DNA of 64,000 nucleotides from Sphagnum magellanicum (Eukaryota; Streptophyta; Sphagnopsida; Sphagnales; Sphagnaceae): contig CM038911.1 of the NCBI GenBank assembly GCA_021904315.1, forward strand, positions 11,009,390-11,073,389, written 5' to 3'. The translations under genes were made by a program, and so were the position numbers. Shown here in pieces: positions 1,440-63,700 of the stretch. The notes beneath the pieces were generated by a model. It worked only from the letters and a program-made list of their open reading frames with translations, was not told the DNA's origin and made no database searches. Position 1 is the stretch's first letter. Each line of letters starts with the position of its first letter.

Positions 1440-4400
1440 CAAATTTACACAAGCCACACACATTAAAACCATATTTGCATGCCCACATTAGTAAGAAGTT
1501 GCCAATGCATCATAACAAAACCACTTTCACAACCCTCACCCATAATGCAACAATAGCATATACCAAACAACCTATGCGCAATGTACAAAAATTGAAAGAA
1601 ACAAAATCTAATTCAATGAAAAGAATGGAGGTGGAAATCCAAACCCCCAACAATTTATATAATGTTTAGTAGCCACATACATTAGGTACCAAGTTGAATT
1701 ATTGATCAACAACTATAATCTTCATGCCACCAGCCATAGCAAATAGTTTGCTACCATACAAGCTACATGTGCAAAAATTAGTAAAACATTTATACCATTA
1801 ACTACTAGCAGAACATATCAAAAATATAACAATCAATTGCATATCTCACCTTATTATTATTCTAATCCTCCATGGCATCCCCAAAAGGAAAACTATCCAA
1901 AGTGTAATGATCATGTGCAAAATCCTGAGAATCAAATCCAAGTGTTTGGTTAGTTGGTTGTGTAACTTGGATTTTAGGAAATACAAGGTGGAAAAACAAT
2001 GTTCATCTTTTACGCTACCTAAAATCATAGCTACAGACAACTTTGCCAACAATGCAAAATACTCTGACAATCAGTGTTGTAAGATGTTGTTGGATGTTAA
2101 AGTAGACAAAGTCGAAAGATAGGGTTGCAAACCAATGGTGGTTCTAAAGCGGCACCATGGTTGCTCTGCATAGGGATCTTAAAGAAGGAAGCTCCAAGAT
2201 CAAGCTTATTTTCATTGAGAAAGGCTGGGATCCTCACCTAATCAGTCATTGGGCCAATGACTTTCTCAAAATAAGATTGAGCCTTCAATAAGGTTAAATG
2301 TCCCTAAATGTTTCTTCAACAAGAGGATTGAGCCAATACTAAGGATAGATGATGCATGTTGCATTCATCAATTCCTGGCTAGGGAACCGTCGCTTTAATT
2401 CCCTGATAAAAAATATGGTAGCATGTGAACACTACATTTTGATAACTTCAAAAGTTGTCGTCTAATCAGCATGTGTAGCTTGAATGAAAACCCCAATAAG
2501 AGGCCATTTTTTATGCAATTGGTATTGCTTGCCCATGAAATAAAAAACCACAAACTAGATGTTTGTTGCAAAATTAGTCCACCAAGTAGTTAACAATTGG
2601 TCATTGTTGTTTTCATGCAAGTCCAAAAACACTTTGAACTATTATACACCATATTTATTTTTAGGATTTGAATACATGATGTACAATTCAAGACAACACA
2701 TATTCACAACAATGATAAAATCACACACAAATGTGTCATGGGCTTACACAAACTTGATATCACATGGATTAACTCCAACAAAAGCACGATGTAAATTAAC
2801 CCCATCACCAAAAATAGTGGAGGTTGGTTTTTATTGGTACCGTAATATGCAAGTCATCATGCATCTTTGGCATTAGAGTTTTATATCTTGCAAGAACTCG
2901 CTTAGCATGAGACAACATGAAGATCCACCTAGTTTTTACATTACAAAGTAGTTTTAGACCCTTGGTTTCAAATAACTTGGTAAGAATTCCATGCTCCAAA
3001 TGTCTTTTAAGTGAAGATGAGAAATATGTGTGTGTAATTTGCAGCAACCCTTCAAGCTTACCAACTAAGGGTTGAACAGAAATAATCTGCACTATTCAAA
3101 AAGTCCGATGTGCCATGTAATGCACTACAATCACAAAAGATGCAACCTTGGATTTAAATTGAGTGGCAACACCAGTTTGTAGCCCTGTGAACATTACAAC
3201 TCCATCTAATCCAAAACAAATCAACTTGTTGCCAATCTAATCAGATGTCAAGCCCCCATACTCCATCAAAGACCTCATAATCAATTGAATCAAGTTATCA
3301 GCATTACCTCCACCAATCACCCTTTCCAAACTTAGCAACAATGGAATCTTTTTCAAGTTGTCAACAACATATGCATGAACACTACACCAAGACTAGTTGT
3401 CAATTGTGGTAACTTCATCATAGCTAATACCAAAGTACTTAGCCTTTGCACAACAATTCTAGTGGATTCAATGATAGTATGATGCATGTTTTCAACCATC
3501 TACGAGCCAATGGAATTAAACCAATGTTCACATGGAATATTTTTCACCTTCAAGATATCAAAGAACTATTTCATATATGCTATCAAAATCTATCAAAGGC
3601 CAGCCAAGTTGCAAGAGCCAAAAAATGGCCACACAATTGAATGAACTTGTGTTTCTTTTCATTAGCTTCACTAGAATCAACCACCATTTCAACAACATAT
3701 TTTGACCCATGCTAGCCCATAATCACTCATTCTTGGCATGTTAATTATTAGTAAACATAACATATTGCCCCATAATAAGTCCAAGATGTGCAACCTTGCA
3801 CTTCTTCCTACTTGCATGTTTTTGCAAACTATCAAATTTAGGAACCAATAGTTTTTCCCTCCCATCAAGCTCATTGCAAATCTTGTAGTGCACCATGTTA
3901 AGTGGAACATCACACCCAATTACCACAACCTTAGCCCAAGGTAATTTTACAACATAGACCTCTTGGAAAACCTAATTTAATTCCCATTCCCTTTTCATGT
4001 GTTTCTTTTGTGTAGGTTCGAGAATTGCAACCTGAAAATCAATATCAAAACTTTGAAGTTAAACCAAATCATTAGAAGATGATGGTGATAAGGGAGAGAC
4101 ATGGTTAATGATTTGAGTCCAAGACGATGAAGTTATGCTTGCAAAAGATAGAGGCCCGACATTAAAGAACATTTTATATTTAAAGTCCATTGGTGGTTAC
4201 AATGGACTAATGATGAGATGAAAATGATAAGACATGAAAGGTAAAAAGAGAACTTAGAAAAGATACCTAGCAGCCCGATTGTAGCACGAGGATCAAACAA
4301 AAATTCAAAATAACACGATGGCAATGTGATGACAATGCGATGGTAATGTAATGAATAAACACGATGAACGCACTAAAATAACCTTAAACATGCTCATAGA

Positions 4401-5180
4401 AGATGAGTAGACCAAAAGAAGCTCAAAGCTTCAAGATCCCAAAAGTTTGATTCAAAGCGATGGCAATGTGATGAACATACACATTGCAGAATGAACATAG
4501 TAACAAAAGCTCATAGACAATGAACAACACGATGAACACGCAATGCAAAATAATTTTCAAAACAAAATGAATTGCGATGAACAAAGAAATGAACATAAAA
4601 CAAAGTGCCTATGGAGCTTATAATGTAAAGAGTAAGAAGATCTTGAAGTAAAATTCAACTTGCAAATTAAATAGGGAAGGAGTAAGTTTAATTGGATGTT
4701 GAAACTCCCTTTGTGCACTCCAACTTCCTTTCCTTTTGTGCTCCATTTCTAGGTCCAATGACCTTCTCTCTAATGCCATGAAAATGAAGATCTCCATGAT
4801 GTTGCCTTTTGCCATGGATTTACAAAACCATTGATTTTACAAATTTAATGTTTGTAACTCCAAGTTCTAATGTCACCTTGTTGTTAATAGAAGCGACAAA
4901 AAAATGTAGTGAAAATTCTCTACAACAGAATAAAAACAAAGAGACTTAGTCATTCTCTATATAAACATGTATAGGCAACTCACATAAAGAAATGAGGGAA
5001 TGTCGGCGATGAAGAAGGACATCATGTGTAGTAAAGTGCCATGTCACCTAACATAAAGTAGAACTAGGGTGGCTACAAGCTTGGAAAAAATAAGCACCTA
5101 TGGTGATGGAGGTGATGGGAGGCAATTGTTCATCAAAATCGACAAGACTAGCAACAAACACTAGCAACCTCTAGCGGCTT
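1440..5180 (-). mobile_element. Decayed hAT-like transposon, copy A
   Basis: On the minus strand, broken frames resemble the large family of plant hAT/DUF659-type transposases. A block at about 3926-3770 carries LLVPKFDSLQKHA. A block at about 3220-3100 carries a TGLQTGVATQFKSKVA-like segment followed by a V-x-Y-M-A-H-R-T sequence. A third block at 3092-2805 carries YFSSSLKRHLEH and CNVKTRWIFMLSHAKRVLA, the conserved KTRW core. Stops and frameshifts separate the blocks, so no active enzyme is encoded. A second copy lies at about 26690-30050 in the same orientation. The two align at both margins: 'acaagccac.cacatta' on the left and 'ggtgatggaggtgatg' on the right. Exact ends, terminal repeats and target duplication were not found. 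Family assignment is by recognition of motifs, not by a search. Confidence 0.6.
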
Positions 5181-26689: not shown

Positions 26690-29600
26690 TTATATCTTGC
26701 ACAAGCCACGCACATTAGAACCATACTTGCATTAGTATGTATTACCAATACAAGTTACATAAACAATTGCAAAGCACCAACCCAAAATTTAGTAGTAGCA
26801 TAAAATAGACCAACAATCATGAAATGTCATAAATTCCAAAAAAAAAAAAACAATTTCGACAAGGCAAAATAAAGTGGGGTGGAAATCAAAACTTTGTTGA
26901 TTTATATTTTTGATTATGAGCCTTGCAAAATATTGGCATACATCAAGTATGAATTTTAAATGCATCCACTGCCAACAACTATAACCCCACTCCTCATGCC
27001 ATTGCAAAATGTTAATCCAATAGAAACACTAAAAAATTTGCACCATAAACTCTTGGCTAAAGTTGTAAAAATTCTAACAATCAATTGCACATTTCACCTT
27101 ATTATTTGCCATCCTCAAAAGGAAAATATGCAAACTATAAAAATCTTCACAACCAAATCCAAATGTGTAATTAGTTAGTTCCACAACTTGGATTTCATGA
27201 ATGACAAGGTGGAAAATCAACACTCATTTACACTACCTAAAATCACAAGTATAGAAAACTCTACCAATGCTAAATACTTAGAAAGTTGATGTTGCAAAAG
27301 GTTGTTAAATGTTAATTTAAACCATAATTAAATGACAAGGTTGCATACTAGTGAAGGTCCTAAAGCAACATGGTTGCTTTGCACAATAATCTTAAAAAAG
27401 GAAGTTAAAAGTTCAAGTTTCCCTTCATCAAGAAGGTCATGGATTTTCACTGAAATAGTTAATGGGCCAATGAACTTTTGAAAACAAAAGTGAACCATTA
27501 GTAAGGCCAAATGCTTTTGAAACATTTCCTTGGCATGGGATTTAGCTAGTATTAAAGATAGATGATGTTAATTGCATTCATCAATTTCTTGGCTTGGGAA
27601 CTATTGCTCAAATTTGACGATCAAAATAACATGTGAACATTAAACCTTGACCACTTCAAAAGCTATTGTCCAATCATCTCACATGGCTTGGGTGAACACA
27701 CTAGTAAAATGACACTTCTTATGCAATTGATATTGCTTGTCCATGAAATAAAAAATCACAAATTATATGTTTGTTGCATGATCAATCCACCATTCAATGA
27801 ACAATTGATCATTTGTAGACTGATGTAGGTCGAAGAAGGCCTTGAAGTGCTCTTGATTATATTTCTTCTCAAGATTAAAATACATGTTGTACAATTAAAC
27901 ACAACAAATTTTGACAAAAGTTACAAAATCACATACAAAAGTGTTTTTTTATGAGTGCATGCATTTCTTCTAATCAAATCAAACCCATGATCATTTCAAT
28001 GTCACAAAGGTACCCCATGTTTGTCTTTGTTACCACCATTGTGTTCATGTCATCATTGTCTTCATCTCTAAAGTTTAGTACTTTATAAGAACCCACCGAA
28101 TAGGTGACGACATGGAGATCCACTTAGTCTTTACATTACATAACAACTTCAATCCTTTGGTTTTCAATAATTTGGCAAGAATGCATTGCTCAAAATGCCT
28201 TTTTGGTGAAAATGAAAAATAATTATAGGTAGTATGCAAAACCCCTTTAGTTTAGAAACTAAGGGCAAAATAGAAAGAATCTTCATGGTTAGGTTAGTTT
28301 GATGTGCCATGCAATGCACCATAGTCATGAAAGGTGTACATTTAAACTTCAATTGACCACCACATGTATGCATACCAATGAACATTGTAACCCCATCTAA
28401 ACCAAAACAAATTACTTTGTTGGCAACCTATTCAATTATTAAACCCATATTCCATCAAAGACTTCAAAATCAATGTGATGAAGTTATTTTTAGAACCTCC
28501 ACCAACCACCCTCTCACAATTCAACAAGAATGACATTTTCTTAAAGCTAGCAATGACATAAATATGCACACTACACCAAGACTAATTGTCAATTGTTGAA
28601 ACTTCATCATAATTGACAATGAAGTACTTGGCTTTTTACATAATAACTTTGATCAATTTGATGAAAATTTGGTGCATGGTTTTAACCATTTGATAACTAG
28701 TGGAATCAAACTAGTGTTTGTCCAAAGTGTTCCTCACCTTCAAAAACTCAAACATGTGTTTTATGCTTTCAAATTTGTCAAGGGTCAACCAAGTTTCAAA
28801 AGTAAAATGACAAGAAAATGAAAAAACCTACAACAATTCCTTATTGCAACAATTTTGCAATCTAAAACCAATTTAGCAACAATGTTTCAACCCTACTAGC
28901 CCATAAATGTTCATTATTTGCACATTGGTTTTTTGTTGACATGATATACTGGCCCACAACACATTCATGGCATGCAACCTTGCATTTTCATTTGCTTGCA
29001 TGTTTTTGCAAGTTGTCAAATTTAGGCACCAAAAGTTTTTTCCTACATTTGATCTCACTACACATTTTGTTATGAACCATAATCAATTTCCCATCACACC
29101 TTACCATTTACCTCAACCCACGACAATTTCACAACCCACATTTCTTGGAAAACTTGATTCAATTCTCATTCCCTCTTTCTATGTTTTTTCTCTAGATTTT
29201 TTGGCTCCAGCTTTAGAGATTCAATATTAAGATCGAAAGAGGATTTGATAAGATCAAGAGATGACAATGGTGATAAAGGATCAAAGATGGGGAAACTTTG
29301 ACACAACAAAATTTTGTCTATTAGATTTGGCCTTTAGGCATTAAAAAAGAACTTGTAACTAAGACTTAGGGGTAGTTGTAAAAGGCTCATTGTGAAAACA
29401 CACAAAAGATGCAAAAGATAGAAAAACGAAACAAAAATTGGGATTGCAAAAACCTTCAAGCTTTTTTGAAAGAGTAAACTCCCCTCAAGCTCAACCTTTA
29501 CATGAAGTTTACAAGCATGTCAAAACACAATGAACATTGTACTTTTGCATAATGTAAAGACTAGGAAGGTCTCAATGTAAAATCCATGCAACTTTAGGAA

Positions 29601-45976: not shown

Positions 45977-48900
45977 ATGCCTCCCGTGACACAAGTATGG
46001 CCACCCGACGACCACAAGAGTCCCATTCATTTTGACGTCGTGTTCTTCCACGGCTTCCAATTTGGGCAGGATGCACACAACATGTGGAAAACCACATGGT
46101 CGACACGAAATCACCCAGAAACATGTTGGCCCCAAGAATGGTTGGGACCAAAATTGGGCAACAATGTCAGAATCTTGCTCCTCTCCTACGATGCATATGC
46201 CACCAAATCCAGGTCGCATGAATTTGGATATACTGAAGATGTTTCACATATTGCAAAGAATTTGGTGCAAAGCGTGGTGACCAGGTTTGATTAAGAACCT
46301 ATATTTGTCTGTCGCAATATTTCCATCTATTTGTTATAAAGATTGCGTGGATTTAGGATTTAACACACACAAATTAATTATATTCTAAAATTACAAACTA
46401 GGTACTAGAAATATGGGTGATTCAAATATGTTGTAATTTTTTGAAGCATGCCTTTGTGGAAGAGGCGAGGAGTTTAGATCCAACATGTAAATTCCATTGT
46501 AGATTGTTCTTTTTAAGGTGTTTATGTGCAAGTTGCAAGTGTTGTGGACTTGAACATACAAGAGGCATGCACTTGAACTTGTGGGATGTACCAAATTTGC
46601 AGTGAGCATAGATCTTAGCATATTGATTGTTGAAAGAATGCCACACATGGCTATTATGTGCTTATTTAATGTTGTGCTTGTTTGATCTTGATCTACAGTT
46701 CTGAATGGAAGTTGGGCCAAGAACACCCCTTTGTGCTTGTAGGGCACAGCTTTGGTGGTATTGTCATCAAGAGTTTGGTCATTGAGATTCATAAGATATC
46801 TCAACAACAACATTTTAACAATTTAGAAAAAAGTGATGTTGAAAAGGCAAATGTTTTTTTGAAAAATATGCTAGGGGTGGCCTTTTATGCTGTACCACAT
46901 GTTGGATCACAACCATTAATTCAATATATTTGTAAACAATCAGTTTGGACTCCAAGCAATTGGCCAAAGTCTTGGAAAATATTGATTCCTCCATATCCAA
47001 AGCAACAGATTTATCAAATGATTTCTTTAATACACTTGCAAATTGCACAAACGTTTATGGTGTTTATGTTTTCATTGAAACCAAACCTATTGATGATAAT
47101 GTGGTAAGTGATGAGCATTGTCAATTGTGCAATGGATGGTTAGCATTCAAAGACTATTGTATAGAAAGTTAATAGGATTGGAAAATATTTGGTTTTGCAG
47201 GGTATGATTGTGGAATATGGACTAGCCCAAATTCCAGGACACAAATGTTATAGAGTTGAAGGTTGTGATCATTTCAATGTTTGCAAGCCACCTGATCAAA
47301 ACCATCCAAGTTATAATATGCTTTTGCAATTTTTGGGGGACTGTAGAAAGGTAATAATTGTTGTTTAATTTACAATTATTGGAGATTAATATTAGTCAGA
47401 ATTGAATGTGTTGATTTGCCAATGTCCATGTTGATTAACAATTTGTCAAATTAATTAATGTTTATGCTTTTAATGTTTTAACATAGAAGAAGTTGTAAGG
47501 TTCATGTAGGATGTTGGAATGCACCAAATGGATAAGGCAAATTAACAATTTCAAATGAGACCAACCCAAATTGAAAGATCTTTTGCAATGTGCATATTTT
47601 TTATCAAAACACATTGTACATATACTGGATTTAAAAAATTTTAAGCCTTTTCATAGAAAGACCAACCTTGGTGCAACTTTCATATTTTTATATTTCTAGA
47701 CTCTTCTTAGGGTTTCATGGATATCACTTCTTGTTTTTGTCAATGAAAGTTGATTGTAGCTATAAAAATTTGTGAATGTAGAAAAGATAGATTATAGCTT
47801 GTAGTTTTAATGGGCAAAATTATGGCAATGAAGAGTTTACGCTTTTCTTTTACATTTATCAAAATACAAGTTATGGGTTGCAAGGACTAAACGAGTTTGT
47901 GTTGATGTAGGATTTTCTATCAAGACATGCAAGCCTACCAACATTGCCAGAACTTGTGATTGGGCTCGATGAAGCTATTGCCAATGTTAAGGGGAAAATT
48001 GTGGACAACCATATGTTAGCTGTGGTTGGAATGGGTGGGATTGGGAAGACAACATTGGTGAAGAAACTTTACCATGAAATACATGCTGATTTTAAAAAAT
48101 CAAGTTTCTTGGAAAATGTTTAAAAAGTTAACATTGTGGAAGTAAAAAAAAAATTGTCATGGACTTGCGTGGCTTGAAATTGGAGGATCCCACAACTTAT
48201 TTTAGATATTTTGAAGAATGTTGGACAGAAATGAAAATACTTGTGGTCATTGATGATGTTGAAGAGACTCAAATAATTGAACTATTGGGCAAAGACATAG
48301 ATGGCATCAAAAGAAGTGAAAATGGTAGTAGAGTAATTATGACAGGGCAAAATTGGAAAGATTTTGAAAATGTTATACCTAAAGATGGGAAGTTTGGAAT
48401 GGATGGACTCAATGAAAAACAAGCAATGGAGCTTTTTTCTTGGAAAGCTTTTAAACAGTCAATACCTCCTCATGATTTTGCATCCATCACAAATGAGGTG
48501 GTAGATGCATGTCGAGGGCTACCATTATCCCTTGAGGTCACAAGTTCTTGACTTTCTACCAAAAAAAATCCAAAAGAATGGAAAGAAGGTTTATCACAAT
48601 TGCAACATGCAAAACCTTTTGGTGGGGGTTGTATTGAAAATGATAAGCTTTGGGGGCGACTAAGGATTTGTTATGATGACTTAGCTTATGAAGAACGTGA
48701 AATGTTTTTAGATATTGCTTGTTTCTTTTCAGAATACAATTCAAAACTTGAGGGCATTTCGACAAAGCAAAAGGGGGTCACAATTCAAAAAGCATTACAA
48801 ATATGGAAGGTCCCATCACAATATTCATTGATGAGTAGTTTGCAAAATTTGAAGGATAGATCACTTGTCAAGGTGAGTGCCAAAGGTAATTTGGTGATGC

Positions 48901-51757
48901 ATGATCAATTACGTGATATGGGTCGACGAATTGTAAAAGAAGCTTCTAATTATGAATATTGTAAGCAAAGTAGGATTTGGGACAAGGAAGAAGCAAGAAT
49001 GGTCCTTTTCAATCAGACGGTAATTACTTCATCTTCAAATGTTCATCAAACTTTCAATTGTACACATTAAATCAACATTGTGTGAAATGTTAGATGTACG
49101 TATGAAAATCTAACTCAATTCGTGGTAATGCATATAATTTAATGTTGAATTCTCTAAACTAATTTGGTGTGGTATTTTATTGGTTTTTAGGTCACTTCAA
49201 ATATTCAAGCCATTTGGTTGCTAGAAAATCTACAACTTCCACAAATAGCAACATCAAAATTTCACAAAATGAAGAAATTGCGAATGCTCATCATGGAACA
49301 AGCTAGTGAAACATTCATAGAATCATTTCTTGGACAACATTTTCGCCAATTAAAATGGCTCAACATATGTTCTCACATGGAACAACTTCCTGAATCCATG
49401 AAATACCTTGTTGGTTTGACTATTTTACAATTGCAACATTGCCAAAAGCTATTGTTCATACCAGAATTTCTCATAAACATGACTTTGCTAATGCATTTAG
49501 ACTTTCACAATTGTTCTTCACTTATTTCACTACCAACAACAATTGGTGACTTGAAGCATTTGACTCAGTTATTCTTACAAAGATGTGGAAACCTTAAAGA
49601 GCTTCCTCAAACCATTGGAAACATCTCTTCATTATCAATATTAGACTTATCTTATTGCAAGTCCATTAAATCACTACCAACAACACTTGGTGATTTGAAG
49701 CATTTGACCAAACTAAAGTTGCGAGGATGTGAAACTCTTAAGGAGCTCCCTCAAACCATTGGAAACACCTCCTCATTATCAATATTAGACTTATTTTATT
49801 GCAAGTCCATTGAATCACTACCAACCACAATTGGTGACTTGAAGCATTTGACCAAATTAAAGTTGCAAGGATGTGAAAATCTCAAGGAACTTCCTCAAAC
49901 CATTGGAAACATCTTCTCATTATCAATATTAGACTTATCTTATTGTGAATCCATTGAATCACTACCAACAACACTTGGTGACTTGAAGCATTTGACAAAA
50001 TTATTCTTGCAAGGATGTCAAAATCTTAAGGAACTTCCTCAAACCATTGGAAACATCTCCTCATTATCAATATTGGACTTATCTCCTTGCAAGTCCATTG
50101 AATCACTACCAACAACACTTGGTGACTTGAAGCATTTGATTGAATTATTCTTGCAAGGATGTCAAAATCTTAAGGAGCTTCCTCAAACCATTGGAAACAT
50201 CTTTTCATTATCAATATTAGACTTATATTATTGCAAGTCCATTGAATCATTACTAATAACACTTGGTGACTTGAAGCATTTGACCCAACTAAAGTTGCGA
50301 AGATGTGAGAATCTTAAGGAGCTTCCTCAAACCATTGGAAACATCTCTTCATTATCAATATTGGACTTATCTTATTGCAAGTCCATTGAATCATTACCAA
50401 CAACATTTGGTGACTTGAAGCATTTGACCAAACTAAAGTTGGAAGGATGTGAAAATCTTAAGGAGCTTCCTCAAACCATTGGAAACATCTCCTCATTATC
50501 AATATTGGACTTATCTCATTGCAAGTCCATTGAATCGCTACCAATAACAATTGGTGATTTCAAGCATTTGACCCAACTAAAGTTGCGAGGATGTGAAAAT
50601 CTTAAGGAGCTTCCTCAAACCATTGGAAACATGTCTTCATTATCAATATTGGACTTATATTATTGCAAGTCCATTGAATCACTACCAACAACACTTGGTG
50701 ACTTGAAGCATTTGACCGAACTAAAGTTGCAAGGACGTGAAAATCTTAAGGAGCTTCCTCAAACCATTGGAAACATCTCTTCATTATCAATATTGGACTT
50801 ATATTATTGCAAGTCCATTGAATCACTACCAACAACACTTGGTGACTTGAAGCATTTGACCAAACTAAAGTTGCGAGGATGTGAAAATCTTAAAGAGCTT
50901 CCTCAAACCATTGGAAACATCTCTTCATTATCAATATTGGACTTATTTTATTGCAAGTCCATGGAATCACTACCAACAACACTTGGTGACTTGAAGCATT
51001 TGACAGAATTATGTTTGCAAGGATGTGACAATCTTAAGGAGCTTCCTAAAACCATTGAAAACATCTCCTGACTATCAATATTGTACTGATCTTATTGCAA
51101 GTCCGTTGAATCACTACCAACAACACTTGGTGACTTAAAGCATTTCACCAAACTAAAATTGGGTTTAAGGTAAATTTTAAAGAACATCCTCAAACCATTG
51201 GAAACATCTTTTCATTATCAATATTGAACTTATCTTATTACAAGTCCATTAAAACACTACCAATAACAATTGGTGACTTGAAGCATTTCACTAAACTAAA
51301 GTTGGGAGGATGTGAAAATGTTAAGGAGCTTCTTCAAACCATTGAAAACTTCTCTTCATTATCAATATTGGACTTATCTTATTGCAAGTCCATTGAATCA
51401 TTACCAATAACAATTGTTGACTTGAAGCATTTCACCAAACTAAAGCTGGGAGGATGTGAAAATCTTAAGGAACTTCTTCAAACCATTTGAAGCATCTCCT
51501 CATTATCAATATTGGACTTATCTTATTGCAAGTCCATTGAATCACTACCAACAACAATTGCTGACCTGAAGCATTTGACTCAAATATTACAAAAATGTGA
51601 AAATTTTAAAAACTTCCTCAAACCATTGGAAACTTCTCCTCATTGTCGATATTAAACTTATTTTTCATTACCAACAACAATTAGTGACTTAAAGTGTTTG
51701 ATATAACTATTGCTAGTAGGATGTGGAAAACTTAAAGAGCTTATTTGATCCATTGGA
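45977..51757 (+). pseudogene. Hydrolase-NB-ARC-LRR (HNL) resistance-type gene, broken
   Basis: Five coding blocks with GT-AG introns are seen: 45977-46284, 46699-47103, 47201-47350, 47911-49019 and 49191 onward. The first three form a SERAC1-like alpha/beta-hydrolase: VVFFHGFQFG, CWPQEWLGPKLGNN, the nucleophile elbow GHSFGG and the terminal CDHFNVCKP. Block four is an NB-ARC: P-loop GMGGIGKTTL, kinase-2 LVVIDDV, GSRVIMT, GLPL, FLDIACFF and MHDQLRDMGR. Block five is LRR. This domain order is the HNL class of intracellular immune receptors of non-flowering plants. Lesions: frameshift at about 46936-46945, TAA at 48121, a frameshift at about 48124-48158 (beside a 10-A run), TGA at 48549, TGA at 51069. 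The start is uncertain. The ATG at 45977 follows gtgcag, which could itself be an acceptor, and the frame is open further upstream without ATG. The 3' end is cut by a retroelement at about 51758. Some single-base lesions could be assembly errors, but several remain. Confidence 0.85.
49476..51757 (+). repeat. Sixteen 144-bp LRR units, near-identical
   Basis: From 49476 the LRR exon is built of 48-residue units, each two 24-residue LRRs of the form SSLSILDLSYCKSIESLP and LKHLTKLKLRGCENLKELP. Eleven units (49476-51059) are in frame. Five more follow after the TGA at 51069, with indels at units 11 (143 bp) and 14 (140 bp). Unit starts fall at 49620, 49764 and so on every 144 bp. Differences between units cluster in the x positions of LxLxxC, as in ILDLSYC/FYC/YYC/SHC/SPC and KLKLRGC/ELFLQGC. 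Homology to the unit stops at 51757, where the retroelement begins. Confidence 0.9.
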
Positions 51758-52600: not shown

Positions 52601-52905
52601 CCTAAGGCAACATCAATAATTCCTCTTGAAGTGCAAACTAATGAAGCATAAAAGCGCACCAACAATCTGCAACAAAATTCTAGAAAAGAAGAATGTTAGA
52701 TTGGAAATGTAGATTCATGGGTTGAGTTTAACTGAAGGAGTTGGGAATATGAACCTCAACAAAAAGTTGCATTGGAGTCAATAGGTCTGATGCAACAACA
52801 TGATTATAATACTTTGATTTATGAAGAAGAACAAATATTCAACATGTCAGAAAGGGAGGAAATAATACCAAGGTATAGATCTACTTCACCTCCTTATTAT
52901 TGAAA

Positions 52906-53165
52906 CAGTAGAAGAAAAACCTTTATTTACAACTGGTGTTTACGACTGTTTTTTAGTCGAAAGAGACATTTTACAACTAACTGTCTAATAGTTGCCTAAG
53001 ACAAGTCGCAGACGACAAATAATCGCAAAACATTACATCAGGATGACATCATCAAATGGTAGATGAAGCCTACATTTAGTATATATCGTTTCATCCGATG
53101 GGGCCAATATATACATAATGTATACAAGGCATCATTTTGCGACTATAAATTACAACTATTTTGGT
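52906..53165 (+). repeat. Left terminus and subterminal repeats
   Basis: Terminal CAGTAGAAGAAAAACC, then repeated TTTACAACT, TTTACGACT, TTTTACAACTA, CGCAGACGAC and GCGACTATAAATTACAACTA. Confidence 0.65.
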
Positions 53166-54000
53166 GGATCCAAACTCCAACCATGTGGAGACACATGTTA
53201 ACTCTTGAAATACTTTTGATTAACTAATGGGTTGTTGCCACATGGCATGGTTTTTAATATTTGGGAAACCAGATTGTGATATTAGATGATCTAGAATTTT
53301 CTAAATCTTATGGTTAAGAAATGACCATGTCTTTTGTGTTTGGCTAATCGAAATGTGCCACATGTCTCATTATGAACATCATGACATTTGAATATTTATT
53401 AAAAAACCCTAGATATATCCCATTCATCAAATGTCAACAATGAGGATCTTGACACATGTCGCATTATTATTTGAATGGAAATTTCAAATTTGCCACATCT
53501 TTTAAAGATCAAAAGAATAGAAACTTGCCACATGGCAATGTTAAATAATTTGAAAATTATTTTTATTGAAAAGGAATAATGGACCCTCATTTAACATTAT
53601 GAATTGAGGTTAACATTTTAGGGTTTAATTAACAATGTTCTAGGGTTAGGGTTACCATGGCTCACTAATCACACACAAAATGGACATGGAAAATGATTTC
53701 CATTGAGCTAATAAAAACTCGGTGAGCACACTCACATTAAGTTTTGCAAAGATGGAAAAATGTTTTGTATTGAACATGGGTTCCTACCTTAATGTAATCA
53801 ACAATACTTAACTTGAATAACTAGATGATCCAAGTCCAAAAAGGAGCAAGTAGATGTTTGGATATCCAACACCAAGTGCGTCATTGCACTGTTCACATGT
53901 GCCATCAACCCTGGCATTAACGGCCCCATCATGACCTACATTCACAAAGAATTCACCAATGTTTCTGTCGTTCAAGTAAAGTGATACACAGATTGTGAGG
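53166..54000. other. Left interior of the CACTA-like element
   Basis: AT-rich sequence with repeated 'tgccacatg' phrases (about 53230, 53350, 53450, 53528). A minus-strand frame at 54035-53808 continues directly from the copper-ATPase remnant and contains VGHDGAVNARVDGTCEQC. It resembles nothing I know and may be a further captured fragment. Confidence 0.4.
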
Positions 54001-57000
54001 TGCTGGCAAGTCATTAATGCCATCCCCAACCATCGCAACTACTGTTCCATCTGCCTGAATTGACTATATTGCTTTCGTCTTCCCAGTAGGTAATACTTCT
54101 GCCATTACATCCATGATGCCCACCTGCCAAATCAAAGAAAAGTAGGGCAAGTTATTTGTCTGTAAGAAGAGTAGAGCCATGACAATCAAAAGGAAGCTAC
54201 TACTGCAAGTAGCTCTTTCTGAGATATGATGCTGGAAGTTTCAGAAATAAATCCTACTTTAAGGGCCAGGACTATGGACATTAATTGACATCATTGGGTA
54301 TTCTTGTTCTTTCAGTGATTGGGCAAGATCTGATTCACAGGCAAAGGAATGAGTAAGGGAAGAAAGCATACTCCAAGAAACACATGCCATCAGAGTACTA
54401 TAAGAAGAAAAGATCAAACCTCATCTGCCACAGATCTAGCAGTTTGCCAATTGTTGCCAGTGACCAGAATGCACTTGATATCCATACTTTTCAGGCCCTC
54501 CACCACAACTGCTGCATCATGTTTCAAGGGATCGGAATGCTAATAACACCTGCTACAGCCCCATCAAAGGCTACTATAACAATTGTCTGAACCCATTGTT
54601 TGTTCTCTTGCAAATAATCTTCTGTGGCCTTTAAAAGATGGCCGTTCCTGAGTTGCTCATCAGATTCTGACTGCCAACCTGGCTAAAAGTTTCAGACAAT
54701 AACAGTCACCGAATTGCAAACACAAAGTGACTGGTGCTGGTGGGGAGCCATGAGTCAGGGTATGACCCTAGTTTCCCAGTGATGTATCTGTCCAATGTTG
54801 CAACAGAGATTAGTTTTTTTCAAAATAAAGACATGTACTGCTTATGCAAATCTTCAATAGAAAACCAGACAGCTACTTCTTGGAACTATTACCTGCCCAA
54901 AAGTCATTAGACCAATGCATTAAACTCAGGCATTCCCAGGCCATATCAGCTTATGCCCAAACTTGAATTAAGGTCTAGGTTGCAGAAAACACTCACCAGC
55001 CAAGAAAGTGGTGACAATCATTGAAACAACAACTGGAACAAAAATGTTGGCAACCTGTCCAGAAGACACAACAACCCAAAGCATGAAACCCAGCATCTAT
55101 TCTGCACAAACAGAACTCAAGAGTATTATCTGCATACACTCACAGTATTTTGTCTGCTACATAGTCTCATGCAACAAGCAATCCAGTTCAGCAGCTTGTA
55201 AAATCAATCCTATCAATCAAATGCAGGTTACACTCAAACTCAGGGGTTGGATTGGAACAGAGACAAGGTAAGTGCTCACATACAGGACTAAGAAGAGAAC
55301 CTAATGCAACAACTAAAATCACATACAATCAGACATGGATATTTATCTACAACAGCCAACTCATCAACAATCTATTTCAAGCAAGAAAGTTGTTGTAAGA
55401 ACGTACACAATCAGCAAACTTTTGTATAGGTGCTTTTGTCATCTGGGCAGCTTCCACCAGGTTGATAATCTGTGCAAGTGCAGTGTCATGTCCAACCCTC
55501 ATGGCCCTTATGTGCATGACTCCATTCGTACTGAGAGTGCCATCTATAACAGAATCACCCATCTTGTTTGCAGCTGGTGAAGACTCCCCAGTGATCATGC
55601 TCTTGTTAACAGGACTGGCCCCACACACATTTATTCCATCAGCTGGCACCTTTGCCGCAGGTGGGACTTTCAGCAAACCACCCCTCTGAATTAACTGCAC
55701 ATTGCACAGCAATTGCATTATAGTCAAGATCTCCACCATGTGCCAAGATGGAAAAGAATCTTAAGTAGCAGAAAAATTGATACTCTGAGTTCTTCCCTTT
55801 GTTAGATGATAAAAGGTGAACATCTTCTTCACAATCCCTCCCTTTGCTGGTAAAGTCAGATTTGACTAGAGCTCCCACAAAAGTCCTGCACTCTGGTGGA
55901 GCTGATCACATGCAATGGAAGTAATAGCACTGGTGCAGATGGATGTAGGGTTTAGGGTTTAGGGAAAATGGATTTTGTATTGAATTACAGACAATGCAAG
56001 AAGAATTGACTGTTCTATTTACTGTAGAGTAAATGTGTAGCTTTCATTATCAGGAACAACATGTAGGTAATCAGGACAATACTGGAGTCTACTGTGAGCA
56101 GAATTGCTGTGGTAGGAGCAAGCTCTAGAAGCTTCCCAATGGCCTCTGAGGTCTTCCCTTTGGCAAGAGACTCCAGGTACTTTCCAAGGAGTACAAATGA
56201 AAAAAGCATGGCACTTGTCTCAAAGTATGTTGTTGCAGGAGAACCTATAACTGCACCATACAGGAGTCCACAAACAGAGTATACATATGATGTTGTGGTG
56301 CCTAATGTCACAAGCACATCCATGTTGGCAGAACCCTGCCACAATGAGTGGTAAGCCCCAACATAAAACTGCCAACCAATAATGAACTGGACGGGTGTCA
56401 CTAGTGTCCACTTGAGCCAGTCCAACAGCAGGAAGAGCCCACATTGTAGGACTAGAAGATACTGGAAAACCACAATATGTGGACAGACAACTCCAATAAA
56501 CACCACAGGTATCTATTTACAATTGTAGTTCATACCACAACTGATCAGTTGACATAAGGATGCAACCTCAATAATTTATACACCCTTGAGCACCAATCAC
56601 GTGAATGTCTCTGGATCCTTCAACCCAGCAATAATGAAAATGCACAATGATGTATAATGTCCTCATCAAGGAAAATACATCAAATGGTAATGGAACTCAC
56701 ACTGAAAGCACAACTCCACAGGAACAGCTGATACATGTGCCCAACCTCTGCACCATAATCAGACGAAACTCGTGTGTAGGGTTTGGGCAAGACCACTTTG
56801 TAGCAGCCAGCTCCACTGTTCTCCACTGCATCAGCAACAGCCCTCAGACCAGTCACTTCTGAATCTATGGATGTCTCCACCTTTCCGGCCATGGCACTAA
56901 CTGTAAATTCTCATACACCCTTCAGGTCACAAAGTACCTCTTCAACACTCTTCCTGTCCTCATAATTGTTCATACCCTTCACCAGAAAGGAGATCTTGGC

Positions 57001-57350
57001 CCTCTGAGGGCTGTCCACTAAGGCAGCATCAAAACCTGTGTCATCAGTGGTGTTGATAATCGCTTGTTGGTCTATTAACCTGGGATCAAATTCCAGGTCA
57101 CCCATCTCAGTGGTCAATGTGACAGATGCATGAGCTATCCCTGGTAGTCTCCTCAACACAGTCTCTATAGAACTCACACAAGCAGCACAAGTTATCCCCC
57201 CAATTCAAAACTGCCCAACCATTTTATTGCTTGAAGGAGCAGCAGCTATACCAAGCTAGGTAAAACTGCATTCAAGGTAATCTCCAGATCAAATCCTGTA
57301 TCTTCTATAGCCTCCACAATGTCCTCTTCTCGTTTGCACACATGCATGCA
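54001..57350 (-). pseudogene. Captured copper P-type ATPase fragments (RAN1/HMA5-like)
   Basis: Exon-like blocks in order on the minus strand: end of a first heavy-metal domain (about 57330-57260, EEDIVEAIEDTGFD); a second one with the copper motif GGITCAAC and the region up to 56701; 56512-56093 (WLKW, NMDVLVTLG, LLGKYLESLAKGKTSEA); 55694-55407 (actuator loop with TGES and KAPIQKFAD); 55054-54997 (ANIFVPVV); 54678-54420 (VTGNNW); 54123-54001 (MVGDGIND). Splice sites are mostly intact (56701 donor GTGAGT). The exons for the membrane CPC motif, the phosphorylated DKTGT and the HP motif are missing between 54997 and 54678. Lesions: stops at about 57214 and 56911, a stop in 54123-54001, and frameshifts in the first and sixth blocks. 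The parent family pumps Cu(I) across Golgi or endosomal membranes. This copy cannot. Confidence 0.85.
55946..55964. repeat. Short telomere-type repeat
   Basis: TAGGGTTTAGGGTTTAGGG inside an intron of the captured ATPase fragment. Confidence 0.7.
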
Positions 57351-57458
57351 CACGACCTCCAGTAAAGTTTATTGAAAGCCAATAGTCCCGACGGGTGCAC
57401 CCTGTCAATTCAGGGAACTCCAGCACTACAAGTTCAATACTGCATCCCAGCAGGCCCA

Positions 57459-57509
57459 TTTAGGGTTTAGGGTTTAGGGTTTAAGTCCAGGTTTAGGGTT
57501 TAGGGTTTA
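57459..57509. repeat. Interstitial telomere repeats between two captured genes
   Basis: Two tracts of (TTTAGGG)n, about three units each (57459-57482 and 57491-57509), separated by 8 bases. They lie exactly between the minus-strand ATPase remnant and the plus-strand HIR remnant. Telo-boxes also occur in plant promoters, so part of a captured promoter is possible. Confidence 0.75.
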
Positions 57510-57629
57510 AGGACTGATGGGGTTTAAGTCTTCTTACTTATGCCAGATTTTGGTGCATCATCTGAGTGTTGAAAATGGGTTGTTGTTGTTGTGTTGTGCA
57601 GATCTTAGACTTGGTGGGGTGGAGGAGAC

Positions 57630-58604
57630 ATGGGGCAAGTGTGTGGTTTATACCAGGTGGACCAATCCACTGTTGCTGTCAAGGAAAAATTCGAAAAATT
57701 CAATACTGTGTTTAGCCCTGGTTGCCATTGTGTCCCATGGTTCTGCGATGTCAATGTTGCAGGTGTTCTGTCCCTTCGCATCCAGTAGCTTGATGTCCAA
57801 TGCAAAACCAAGAGCAAGGTCTGGTGTTGTTTTTTTTCCCCCTCTCCCCCGCCCACCCACCTGCCTGCCTGCTTGGATCTTTTATCAGTGGTCTTGTGAG
57901 GATGAATCAGAGCTCAGGGGTAGGAATTGTGGGGTTTGTGTGTCTGTGATGTTCAGGACAATGTCTTTGTGACTGTGGTGGCATGAGTGCAATATCGAGC
58001 ACACATTGAGACTGCTGAAGATGCCTTCTACAAGCTCACGAATCCAAGGGAACAAATCAAATCATATGTATTTGATGCTAAGTATAGCAGTCCTTGTTGC
58101 AAACAGTTGATGTAATCGGTATCAAATTTCAATGAGTAGGCGTTATGTTCAAGCAAAATGGCAACTATATAGACATATATATATGTGTTCCTCATGTGAT
58201 CAGGTTTCAATTCTGAGCAGAATGTTGTTGTTTGTTTGTGAGCAGTTGTGTGGGCCAGTGTACGAAGGATGCTTCTCGATGATGTTTTTGGGCAGAAGAA
58301 TGACATTGCAAAGAATGTGGAAGAAGAACTTGAGAAGGTCAATTTTCTTTATTCCTTTTTGATAGCAACCATTTTTGTTTCACCTGGCAGCAGTTTGAAA
58401 ATGCTTTCAGTTCTCCAACCCTAGCTGGAGTAATGGAAGATGTGGATATATGTAGCAATTAATAGATGATTCTGACAGTTTATTTTTTGCTGACAAAAAT
58501 ATTGCAGGCCATGCGGAATTATGGGTATGAGATTGTGCAAACTCTCATTGTTAACACTGAACCTGATGAAACTGTCAAGCGGGCCATGAACGAAATCAAT
58601 GCAG
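57630..58604 (+). pseudogene. HIR/SPFH gene, 5' exons, broken
   Basis: Four exon-like blocks match hypersensitive-induced-reaction proteins, plasma-membrane SPFH proteins linked to plant immunity. 57630-57818 starts with the family N-terminus ([19 protein letters not shown], followed by GCHCVPW). 57957-58077 contains DNVFVTVVA and DAFYKL. 58246-58337 contains RRMLLDD and QKNDIAKNVEEELEK. 58508-58604 contains [12 protein letters not shown] and KRAMNEINA. Phases of all four agree. Two in-frame stops are present (TAG at 57786, TGA at 57984), both at codons one substitution from the expected residue. The donor after 58077 reads ctaagt where gtaagt is expected. The last exon is not downstream on this strand but lies inverted at 59264-59650. 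Confidence 0.88.
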
Positions 58605-58861
58605 GTGAGGAGACTCATGTCTCTCTCTTATGTCCTTTTGTCCCATGCTCCAGTTCAATGTTAAACTGGCTGCTCTTCAAGATCTATTCTCTAATGCAAA
58701 TTGATGTCAACTTAGTAGTTGATACAAATTAGGAGAGAGAGATGGTCTTCTTCAGCAAGTCAAGTTTTTCTTGACCAGAACTATCTTGAATGAACTTGCA
58801 ATTTTATAGATTGTGAAGATCTGTGAACCAAATAAGTGCACTTTTTCTTGATTGCAGTTGC

Positions 58862-59140
58862 AAGGGATTTAGATTGTACTCATTCCGATTACCAGACTTG
58901 TAAAAGCCCGGTATCGTTATTTATTGTCACTACCTCCCCATGTCGGGGTTGGGTAATTTGCGCGCCTGCTGCCTTCCTTGGATGTGGTAGCCGTTTCTCA
59001 GGCTCCCTCTCCGGAATCGAACCCTAATTCTCTGTCACCCGTCACCACCACGGTAGGCCTCTATCCTACCGTCGAAAGTTGATAGGACAGAAATTTGAAT
59101 GAAACATCGCCGGCGCCAGGGCCGTGCGATTCGACAGAGT
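58862..59140 (-). rRNA. 18S rRNA gene fragment (about 280 bp)
   Basis: On the minus strand this reads as part of the 5' third of nuclear 18S rRNA. It contains GGTTCGATTCCGGAGAGG, GAGAAACGGCTACCACATC, GGCAGCAGGCGCGCAAATTA, GGGGAGGTAGTGACAATAAA and GAGTACAATCTAAATCCCTT. A small number of substitutions relative to the plant consensus shows it is a dead copy. Its inner edge (58862) falls five bases after a splice acceptor that belongs to the HIR remnant, which marks a rearrangement breakpoint. Confidence 0.93.
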
Positions 59141-59263
59141 TTTTGACTACTTTTATTTGTACAAATCTCTAGAATACTCTCTTGTGCAAGCCTTCAACAA
59201 TGGGCAGATACAGTTTGTTGTAATACCCATTCAAAGAGAAGTGCCGCTCAGACAATTGCCATG

Positions 59264-59650
59264 TTAATTCATATGGCCAGCTTGCCCTTGCAGTAAACCA
59301 TTACGGATCTGCTCTGCAACATCACGCACAACACCAGGACCATGTGGGATGAACATCGTGGAGTTCCTGGAGCTTGCACCGATTTCTTTCATTGTGTCAA
59401 AGTACTGTGTCACCAACACCATGTTCATAACTTCCTTAGGTGTTGTCCCTGGAACATTGTCTGAGAAGGCTAAAGCACTCTCCCGCAAGCCATCAACAAT
59501 TGCCTGACGCTGACGTGCAACACCCACTCCTGAAAGATACTTTGCCTCTGCCTCCCCCTTTGCTCGCTTCACTTGAAGAGTTTTCTCTGCCTCTGCCTTC
59601 TCGAACATTAGTTTCTTTTCATATAGAGCTGGTACTCTGAGAGCATTCTA
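59264..59650 (-). pseudogene. HIR/SPFH gene, last exon, inverted
   Basis: A minus-strand frame without stops encodes the C-terminal part of an HIR protein: [20 protein letters not shown], then [38 protein letters not shown] and [20 protein letters not shown], ending naturally at 59264. It begins at about 59650 with LRVPA, the residues expected right after the last plus-strand exon at 58604 (NEINA). About a dozen extra residues (LYEKKLMFE) follow LRVPA. The two parts are complementary and non-overlapping, so they look like one gene broken by inversion. Confidence 0.85.
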
Positions 59651-60570
59651 CACTGAAATCTCGTCAGAATCTGTAATGCAACCAGATTTGTATGTGTGTT
59701 TACAGTTTATTGTCAGAATAGTATGTGTACTTGATTGAGCATTGTCTGACTTCCCAGTGATTTGCATCAATGGATTGGTTTTCCCTTGCAAAAGTGTTTA
59801 TTTTCAGAGAAGATTCATTTCCATTTTAGCTCACTCTCACAGATGCTTGTTGCAGATTGAATCAAGAGATTAGGTATTCATTAGCTATGCCTTTTGGGTG
59901 CTTGCTGAAATTGTGGTCGAAGTTTTCCTGTTGCTTTAAGAATGTGATACATATTCAATGTTGAAAATTATCTGCACCCTACCTTCCACACATATGCCTA
60001 TTTCATCTCACAAGCTGCAACAACAGAAACAACAACTCTCTTCAACTAGGGTACAGCAGACTTAAAACCACTCAAACTGTTTGACATGGGTTAGCAGAAT
60101 TCCTTAGTACCAAGTCCATAACTTCCTTAGGTGTTGTCCCCTATTAGACTGCAACATAAATCTAGGCAAATATATTGGAACACTAATTTGGAAAACCACA
60201 TAAGGCATGTAATATGACTTGGGTATAATCTGTATATTATTTTAAACAAATTTGACATAAATAAACTAGACAAAAACTAAGGTGATGTATGCAATACATA
60301 TTCAAGTATGCTTCAAATACAATTTACATACAATTTAAATACAACCATTATACATAACCAGTAATATATGGGTACATCTTAGTATGTACCCACATAATAA
60401 TGAGTAGAATACATTCAATACACAATTGTGGACCCCTTATGCCTAAAATATGTATAATACATTTGGAATACTCACATGGCTATGACTCATTTGGTGACAT
60501 TTGCAATTAATGGTAGGTAGAGGGGTCTTCTTGGATGGAAATTGTATTGAAAACTATCCAAATGAAAGGA
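59651..60570. other. Right interior of the CACTA-like element
   Basis: AT-rich and non-coding. A 27-bp stretch at 60114-60140 (cataacttccttaggtgttgtccc) repeats part of the HIR last exon (about 59427-59451) in the same orientation. Confidence 0.5.
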
Positions 60571-60727
60571 TGAAAAAAGCCATTAGTCGTAAGTTAGTCA
60601 TAGAGTAGTTGCAAGCGGCTTCAAATGCAAAAGGTATTGTAGATATAACCAACAATAGTTGTAAATGTCAAATAGTCGCAACTAGTCGCAAATTTGTTGG
60701 TTACAAAATCCCAATTTTCTTCTAGTG
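60571..60727 (-). repeat. Right terminus and subterminal repeats
   Basis: Read on the minus strand it begins CACTAGAAGAAAATTGGG, followed by TTTGCGACTAGTTGCGACTA, TTTACAACTA, TTGCAACTAC and TTACGACTA, mirroring the left end. Confidence 0.65.
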
Positions 60728-63700
60728 AAAGGACAATGAGAATGAAAAGTTTGAACAAATAGCTCAAAATTTTGAACCTTCAATTCATTATGTGGTTGAG
60801 TAAGAAGCTGCAACTTAGGGCATCAAAATGTCAAAGGAGTTGAACCAATATTTGTAACTAAATAGGAAATTGTAATCTTACCGAAAGCAAAACCAATAGT
60901 AGCAAAAGGTGTACATGTGGCTGTTAGACTAAAGTATAGTGAACCCAAACTTAATCACCATAGTGGAAGCATTGTTAGAAGAATCACAAGGGATTGGAGC
61001 AAATGAATTCATAATGTGAATAGAGTTCCAAGACCTAATTCTCCACAATGCACATATTGTCATTAGGTTGGACATCAAATCAATGAATGTCCATTTATTG
61101 AAAATAATGTGAAGCAAAGATTTGTTGAACATTTCCAAAATTTGAATCTAGAACTTGCAAAGGCAAAAAACCATGGACATGTTGAAAGGATCTATACCAT
61201 GAAAGGGTTAGGATTCCATATAGACTCAAATAATAGATCTTGAGAAATAACAAAATGGAAATGAAAGCTTAGACTATGACAAATATAATACTTGTTTATG
61301 TAGCTTTTGCACCAAATATGCTACATCATAACAACGTTAGAATTACTTATGCAGGAGCTTCCAATTTTAAAATGGAACCAATAAAATCTGTACCATTATA
61401 TTTTGTGGCCATGCTTCAATTTATGGTTATAGTTACTAAAGCTCCATTTGTAACAGCACCAGCCCATATTATTATTGGTATGAGGTCCAAACCGCAAACT
61501 CTAAAGGTAACACAACTTGTTAATGTGAATAGAAAAATGCCCAAAAAGGTGAACAAAGTTTTTGCTAGACAACCATGATATCCAGGAGGAGGAAGATCAA
61601 GACCACCAGAACCACCAAGACCTCCAAGACCTTCAAGCTATTTTGGATTGCCAATGATGAATCAGGCAAACCACCATTACCACCAAACAAGCCTTATCAT
61701 TGGCCACTTAACTACCCTGAGTATGTGAATAATTTTAACCTAGATGCTCATGTTAGAGTTTTTAAGGTTGCCATTAAAGCAAATGGTGAAACAAAAGATG
61801 TAAAAATTGTTAATATGTTTAGTTTTACCCTTAAAGATACTATGTTTAACTAGTGTAATAATTACATGGGAGATTACTTAGAATGTATTTTTGCAAAATT
61901 ATAATTAGTTTTCTATAAACGATTTAGAATAGTTCAAAATGATGAGCAAGTAAATCTACAGTTGAAAGACATGAAGTAGGAAACAAATGACAAAGCGAGA
62001 GTTTATTATGAGAGATTATTGAAGTTAGCCAATAGTCTTCAACACAAAACAATAGATAGTTTCCTAACTATTGTTTTTAGATCTAGATTACAACCATATT
62101 TGTGTGTAACAACAACATGCATGAAAAGAAAAACCATGTAGTAACATAAAGAAATAACTTTGGTTTGTGAAGAAGGAATTTCTGAAGTAGAAATTATAAG
62201 TAATTTGTCAATACCACAAAATAGTAAGACAATATTAGTTCAAAAACCTCAAATTGTTCTAGAAAAAACATGAATGTATTGTAGAAAATGTCATAGAACA
62301 AATCACAATGTTGAAACATGCAAAATCAAAAGAAAGGAAGAATCTGTTCTTGTAGTTTCTAAGGTTACCACTTAGTAAATCAAAGTGTAGAAACTTGTGA
62401 GGTATTCTTATCATATCTATGGTGACAATGGACACAAGATCATAAATTGTCATGAGTACAATGACATGCAAAATATGTTTAAGAACAAAGGGGTGAAGAT
62501 TACAGAGAAACCATTTGTCATGGAGCCCAAGGTTGCTAATCCTTCAGTTTATTTAATGGATGTCAACATGGTTATTACCAAGAAAAAGGTTATTGAAGAT
62601 CAAGTTTTCAAGGACAAAGAGCCAATCAAGAAGAAATTTGCTATTGGTTGGGAAGAAGAATAAAAACTACAATAACCTTTTGTCAAAACAATACAAGAGA
62701 TGCAAATAGAAAACCCACCAAAAAATCTAAATCAGAAGGAGAAAGCACAATAAAGTACAAGTTGGGCAAGATTACCAAAGGCAAAAGTGTCTACAAAACC
62801 AATTGTACCACAAAATTTGTTTGCTATTCTTCACAACAAAGTTATGTGTATAGAACAAATATTCCAAGATATCAGTAAAAAAATGTTGGAAACTACCTAT
62901 ACCTCGAGGTTAGGTCAACTAATGAAAATAACACCAAATCTTTAAAAATATATGTGGTAGAAACTAAAGCCAAAAAAACCTAATATAAGTATACAATGAT
63001 ATTAGAGCCTAGTGTAGCAATAATGATTGAGACACACACTAAAGTTCACACTACAGCTATAAAATTAAATAACCAAATGGTCATTATCCAAGTACAAGTT
63101 GGGAAAAACATTGTTGAGGATTTTTTGTTAGATGGAGGCGCAACTGTCAATATAATAATAAAAAACCTTAGAACAAAATTAGATTTACCCAAACCAAGAC
63201 CAGCTCCATACCACCTCAAAATGGCAAATCAAAGTATCATTAAAACCTTTAAGAATCATAAAAAATTTGAAAATTCACATACATGGCATACCATATGTAA
63301 CCACATTTATTGTTTTGCAAAACAGTGTGGTAGATTCTAACTATTTTATGTTACTGGAAAGACCTTGGTTCAAAGATGCAAAGGTACACATGACTAGGGC
63401 AACAATGTCATTATTGTTCAAGGTAATGAAATAGTCAAAACAATATTAATTAACAAGAAATTGGGAGCAAAAACTAGAAAGCCCCAAGTATTTGTTTGTT
63501 ATGACTTGATGGAAAGGCTAACAAATGAAGAGGAAGATTTGATCTTTAAGATAGATCTAGAATTTTTTTCAATTGGTACAATCACTATCTTAGAAGAAAC
63601 AATTTCATTGTTGAATATTAGAATGTTAAAAATCACAATCAATGAAGAATTTGATCCATAGCAAGGGACATCAAATCAAGGAGCAACATAAGTGGTGCCT

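Follow-up and report, generated by a model that had tools for sequence, protein, structure and literature searches.

A 7,822-bp stretch at positions 52906-60727 of a 64,000-bp window of the Sphagnum magellanicum genome (C5:11009390-11073389; the window is this whole stretch) is a real CACTA-type insertion, which carries dead pieces from two host genes and a scrap of 18S ribosomal DNA (rDNA). An original prediction, made from the letters of the window, had described it as a non-autonomous CACTA element nested in a retroelement of a probable non-flowering plant, and both the element type and the kind of host are borne out. Taking all evidence together, it is highly probable that a non-autonomous CACTA element acquired its cargo stepwise, that the 18S piece came last through repair of a break, and that the cargo is passenger DNA.

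Results

A CACTA element is inserted in a degenerate retroelement

The insertion is delimited by the following features.

52906-60727, plus strand: whole non-autonomous CACTA (Pack-CACTA) element, 7,822 bp, placed by recurring ends and empty retroelement copies
52906-53205, plus strand: left terminus CAGTAGAAGAAAA with subterminal AGTCG/CGACT and TTGCGAC motifs (genome left-end matches, motif count)
60428-60727, plus strand: right terminus TTTTCTTCTAGTG with the subterminal motifs mirrored (genome right-end matches, motif count)
52903-52905: left target-site duplication AAA (single AAA in empty sites)
60728-60730: right target-site duplication AAA (single AAA in empty sites)
52901-52903, plus strand: TGA stop in the gag frame of the host retroelement, directly before the insertion (comparison with empty sites)

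The near-matching inverted ends (CAGTAGAAGAAAA and CACTAGAAGAAAA), the flanking AAA and the mirrored subterminal motifs were found where they had been predicted. The termini of the element, CAGTAG and CACTAG, are short terminal inverted repeats near CACTA, and most other left ends that were read carry CACTAG. The outer 300 bp at both ends together contain the motif AGTCG/CGACT seven times, whereas the interior of the element does not contain it. Terminal inverted repeats, a 3-bp duplication and mirrored subterminal repeats, which characterize CACTA (En/Spm) elements, are all present.

Both ends were searched in the genome (439 Mb, 31 contigs). With the left end as query (40 of 541 candidates scored), 39 other places were obtained that begin at query positions 48-56, the element itself beginning at 51; with the right end (40 of 262 candidates scored), 39 other places end at positions 449-458, the element ending at 450. 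Nineteen family places were fetched, and for 16 of them both ends are in hand. A perfect 3-bp duplication flanks 11 of these 16 copies (L030, L031, L032, L034, L035, L037, L039, L040, L041, L042 and L046). A search with the retroelement flank (146 candidates, 40 scored) led to six fetched copies, all of which are uninterrupted at the insertion point and hold a single AAA. Recurring ends, copies with a 3-bp duplication and empty sites therefore identify positions 52906-60727 as an insertion. Retroelement homology resumes on the far side of the insert, in line with the predicted gag frame running across it, but the frame is already stopped by the TGA at 52901-52903, which is common to the empty-site copies L054-L057 and is not found in L058 or L059.

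No transposase was recognized in the list of open reading frames (ORFs) of the element, and none of the 152 PF02992 matches listed (150 of 657 candidates scored) lies in the window interval.

The element carries HIR, ATPase and 18S rDNA pieces of different distribution

Inside the element, the cargo is arranged as follows.

54002-57370, minus strand: ATPase-bearing block, present in L030, L032 and L033 and not in copies with HIR only; homology to the C12 gene covers 54712-57368
54693-54699: deletion point with about 0.7 kb lost relative to L030, L032 and L033 and a short CAA shared at the join (copy alignment)
57459-57509, plus strand: telomere-like TTTAGGG run (7.6 units) ahead of the HIR part, shared with other copies
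57624-58865, plus strand: captured HIR gene, 5' part, which keeps introns and has in-frame stops and an exon-2 splice donor without GT (comparison with the C7 gene and copies)
58866-59140, minus strand: 18S rDNA fragment of 275 bp (Rfam match, copy comparison); the alignment extends to 280 bp owing to 4 bp in common with HIR at the junction
59141-59602, minus strand: 3' part of HIR, 462 bp, inverted relative to other copies (copy comparison)

With the HIR 3' piece as query (27 of 27 candidates scored), matches were obtained in the window, at 18 further family-like places (94-97%) and at seven distant loci (71-88%). Parent-like HIR genes are found on C7, C9 and C14 (84-88%). A protein search returned 685 matches, of which 120 were listed, some of them named hypersensitive-induced response. 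Compared with the C7 gene, the family copies reach from a point ahead of the start through to the last exon; their introns are kept, intron 1 in shortened form, and copies in the ancestral order such as L030 contain every HIR exon matched to the C7 gene. The exon-2 donor was without GT in all seven copies in which the motif was located, and the window copy has in-frame stops; a working HIR gene is rejected on these two findings. The HIR cargo is a near-whole gene with introns and, where checked, dead. In other peat-moss data, the inverted HIR junction of the window was absent from the 13 homologues read among the 120 listed of 685 found. A 128-aa product named from Sphagnum jensenii has its C-terminal end in common with the HIR pieces of the element. 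The TTTAGGG run was considered as a scar of the window copy and rejected, because other copies carry it as well.

The ATPase piece is a partial gene with HMA and E1-E2_ATPase domains on the minus strand, i.e. a piece of a P1B-type ATPase, which by resemblance we take to be of the copper type. A 1,151-bp ATPase query (11 of 11 candidates scored) matched the window, four other places (95-98%), a single parent-like gene, on C12, in pieces of 86, 83 and 72%, and, with short or weak matches, five further places. L030, L032 and L033, all paired copies, account for three of the four other places; the fourth is the closest of the search matches (C6:4782806, 98%). The C12 gene is colinear with, and antisense to, element positions 1807-4463 in three blocks of 72-82%. 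Where the ATPase block stands, HIR-only copies have about 2.04 kb of other sequence, represented by L029, in which a DUF639 match fell under the cut-off of that family.

The 18S fragment was recognized by Rfam as SSU_rRNA_eukarya with 215.7 bits; the reported span (58844-59297) exceeds the real fragment, whose well-aligned part is about 58866-59140. All 22 candidates of an 18S-region query were scored, giving the window, 18 places that match the HIR part only and three partial 18S-like places (C10:18172289, 86%; C10:10921942, 92%; C5:14008919, 79%). Only in the window copy is 18S joined to HIR, and the 18S stretch is absent from every other fetched family copy. The adjoining 462-bp HIR 3' part lies in the orientation opposite to that of 16 of the 18 other places and of L031. 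Relative to other copies, 18 and 6 bases were lost at the site of the 18S piece and inversion, and the overlaps at the three junctions are 4 bp (AAGG), about 1 bp and 0 bp. By these junctions and its distribution, the 18S piece reads as a probable later break-repair patch and not as family cargo. The predicted carriage of copper-ATPase, HIR and 18S rDNA pieces was thus found with all three present, but 18S is confined to the window copy. The suggested mapping of cargo to parent loci led to parent-like genes for HIR and the ATPase.

The 18S-like locus on C10 is an unlikely donor: it is 86% identical, and among 40 differences 31 are C-to-T or G-to-A changes of the C10 sequence, so that the window piece is the less decayed of the two. 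This C10 pseudogene occupies L053:1-809, and its excess of such changes is as expected of methylated, decaying rDNA.

Identities and distributions suggest an order of capture

Window-to-copy identities are 94.8-98.0% for ATPase segments (2-3 copies) and 89.2-96.5% for HIR segments (5-6 copies); for the end segments of the best seven copies they are 94.2-97.7% (left) and 96.8-98.0% (right). In the right-end distance table the rows of L041, L042 and L046 are inflated, since the stretch cut exceeded the homology, and the pair mean was not used. Segment identities together with copy distributions support an order in which HIR would have been captured first, the ATPase second and the 18S patch last.

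As expected of Pack-TYPE elements, the element carries host-gene fragments with parent-like genes elsewhere, and its HIR and ATPase cargo is shared by several copies. Other copies contain further pieces, namely an AP2 domain piece (L042:7524-7901) and a peptidase M18 piece (L039:7701-8111), and the family is therefore a mosaic Pack-CACTA family.

Four loci have transposase genes near the same right end

Four of the six best-scoring PF02992 matches (C11:13460844, C12:16104104, C1:2055470 and C1:5665862) are TNP2 genes, each with a family right end and a HIR piece of matching orientation at a distance of about 10 kb; a candidate enzyme source therefore exists. The C11 stretch contains Transposase_21, DUF4218, a protein-kinase fragment, a non-inverted HIR tail and the family right end. 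The kinase fragment (L050:5550-6455) separates the transposase genes from the HIR tail and is perhaps further captured cargo. Regarding the proposed autonomous relative, transposase genes beside the same right end were obtained, but a complete transposase-bearing element was not delimited.

Other features of the window

Outside the element, an NLR-like disease-resistance gene remnant was found at 48132-51757 with NB-ARC, winged-helix and LRR matches; it contains a 144-bp unit (48 residues) repeated 14.9 times in tandem (49527-51661). Upstream of the NB-ARC part, an ORF at 46670-47107 without a Pfam match has a GHSFGG motif, which resembles that of an alpha/beta hydrolase, and the two are possibly one hydrolase-NLR gene. 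A direct repeat of about 2.2 kb with 68.5% identity occupies 1782-4004 and 27030-29188. Another ORF without a Pfam match (62984-63340) has a DGGATVN motif, which we take to be reminiscent of a retroelement protease.

Discussion

The insertion itself is shown: a non-autonomous Pack-CACTA element of a large family entered a degenerate retroelement in its gag region, and AAA was duplicated. According to the explanation that we prefer, the element would most likely have been moved by a TNP2-type transposase supplied in trans from loci with the same right end and acting on both ends. The HIR gene would have been gained first, and the ATPase gene fragment next, in a sublineage, where it would have replaced the about 2.04 kb of older sequence. 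Last, and in the window copy alone, a break would have been repaired with the 462-bp flip, the 18S patch and the 18- and 6-bp losses, a repair suggested by the junctions. Cut-and-paste movement is favoured, with cargo probably gained as breaks or gaps in element copies were repaired from unrelated templates. Rubin and Levy are said to have described abortive gap repair. For such a mechanism, PMC8978399 points to these authors in the passages seen. The cargo is passenger DNA without a sign of coding function. A broader scheme is tentative and rather doubtful: after a break or incomplete post-excision repair, copies of this family might be patched from unrelated templates including the rDNA array, the window copy being a single-copy snapshot of how foreign DNA comes into such elements, before any amplification, and transposase-bearing members might also take up and spread cargo.

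Several observations weigh against stepwise capture by a CACTA family as set out here. Five of the 16 copies (L029, L033, L036, L038 and L043/L044) are without a perfect 3-bp duplication, L029 showing a repeat of 4 bp (TATT) in its place. The 18S search, which skips very common words and to which the true rDNA array may therefore be invisible, did not return that array. C5:12081911, one of the 18 other HIR places, is undecided in orientation. A search of the 23.9 kb that precede the C11 right end yielded no family left end; a complete autonomous element is therefore not claimed, and the enzyme source is not established as a complete sibling. Finally, the right end of the window element is closest to L029 (98.0%), which is without the ATPase block, while L030 and L032 reach 97.3%, so that a simple ladder of descent misfits some segments; sequence exchange between family copies is likely to have occurred, as far as these comparisons indicate.

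Joint arrival of all cargo, 18S included, by fusion of neighbouring elements that have since travelled as one unit appears very improbable. Fusion is the published model for Pack-CACTA of Arabidopsis, according to the parts of PMC8903248 and PMC13317346 that were available, and it could still account for HIR or the ATPase if each piece is considered separately. The original prediction spoke of capture from three unrelated loci in one element, which is incomplete, since arrival of the three pieces together is contradicted by differing copy distributions: HIR is found at 18 other family-like places, the ATPase at 4 and 18S with the 462-bp inversion at none. No internal terminal remnant with two mismatches or fewer was found in the window element, L029, L030, L031 or L032, which is weak evidence against fusion because fusion may delete remnants; L036 has one internal terminal match with two mismatches. 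Slightly less improbable, but still very unlikely, is that the insertion is real and that misassembly produced the 18S piece and the inversion. Their presence in one copy only and the proneness of rDNA to misassembly would fit such an error, yet the junctions are exact, with few bases lost and little overlap, the patch spans just 275 bp of gap-free sequence, and about 70x PacBio continuous long reads (CLR) stand behind the Sphagnum divinum assembly, which is of equal size (PMC9946827, in the passages found).

We give hardly any credence to the idea that the HIR or ATPase cargo has kept a gene function or acts as a regulator of its parent through small RNAs. The complete set of matched exons in copies such as L030 and the wide spread of the HIR piece by the family speak for function; the missing donor GT in 7 of 7 copies, the stops in the window copy, the division of its HIR by the inversion and the partial ATPase speak against it.

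Soybean Tgm-Express1 is reportedly a CACTA element with fragments of several host genes. Among systems known to us from the available parts of papers, Pack-CACTA elements of Arabidopsis, rice and maize (PMC8903248) likewise have non-autonomous CACTA ends, a 3-bp duplication, several host-gene fragments and multiple copies; the element described here differs in its moss host and in one copy with an rDNA patch, a comparison by description and not by sequence. Catoni et al. (2019) on Pack-CACTA is known to us through citing papers. Grapevine Cactavine-5 (PMC2528002) similarly belongs to a CACTA family that has taken up part of a host gene and has a transposase gene nearby; this PPR piece is in two family copies, whereas in Sphagnum no transposase-bearing element was delimited in full. 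The CACTA elements of Chenopodium (PMC8978399) also hold captured gene fragments, including AP2, and non-genic DNA; the latter consists of satellite arrays, in flowering plants, in contrast to rDNA in a moss. CACTA capture of host genes, from several loci and beside a transposase, has already been published (passages of PMC8903248, PMC2528002 and PMC8978399); the original prediction had called capture from three unrelated loci unusual for one element of a probable non-flowering plant. That rDNA capture is especially so agrees with a literature search of partly seen sources, which found no precedent for it, nor for CACTA gene capture in moss or Sphagnum; this is not proof of absence. PMC9946827 describes an assembly of Sphagnum divinum with 439 Mb in 20 chromosomes, made from about 70x PacBio CLR, and reports a CACTA superfamily share of 6.8% and 7.8% unclassified repeats; the passages found mention CACTA abundance and no transposon capture, "gene capture" being used once, for sex chromosomes.

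The element is a further gene-capturing CACTA, and its point of interest is the 18S patch, whose junction cleanly records how unrelated DNA entered a single copy at a break. With it, a moss family is added to the gene-capturing CACTA transposons that the cited papers, as far as seen, describe in flowering plants, and the order of capture in this family can be read from copy distributions. Some predicted HIR-like proteins in peat-moss data, such as the 128-aa Sphagnum jensenii product, may be transposon pseudogenes.

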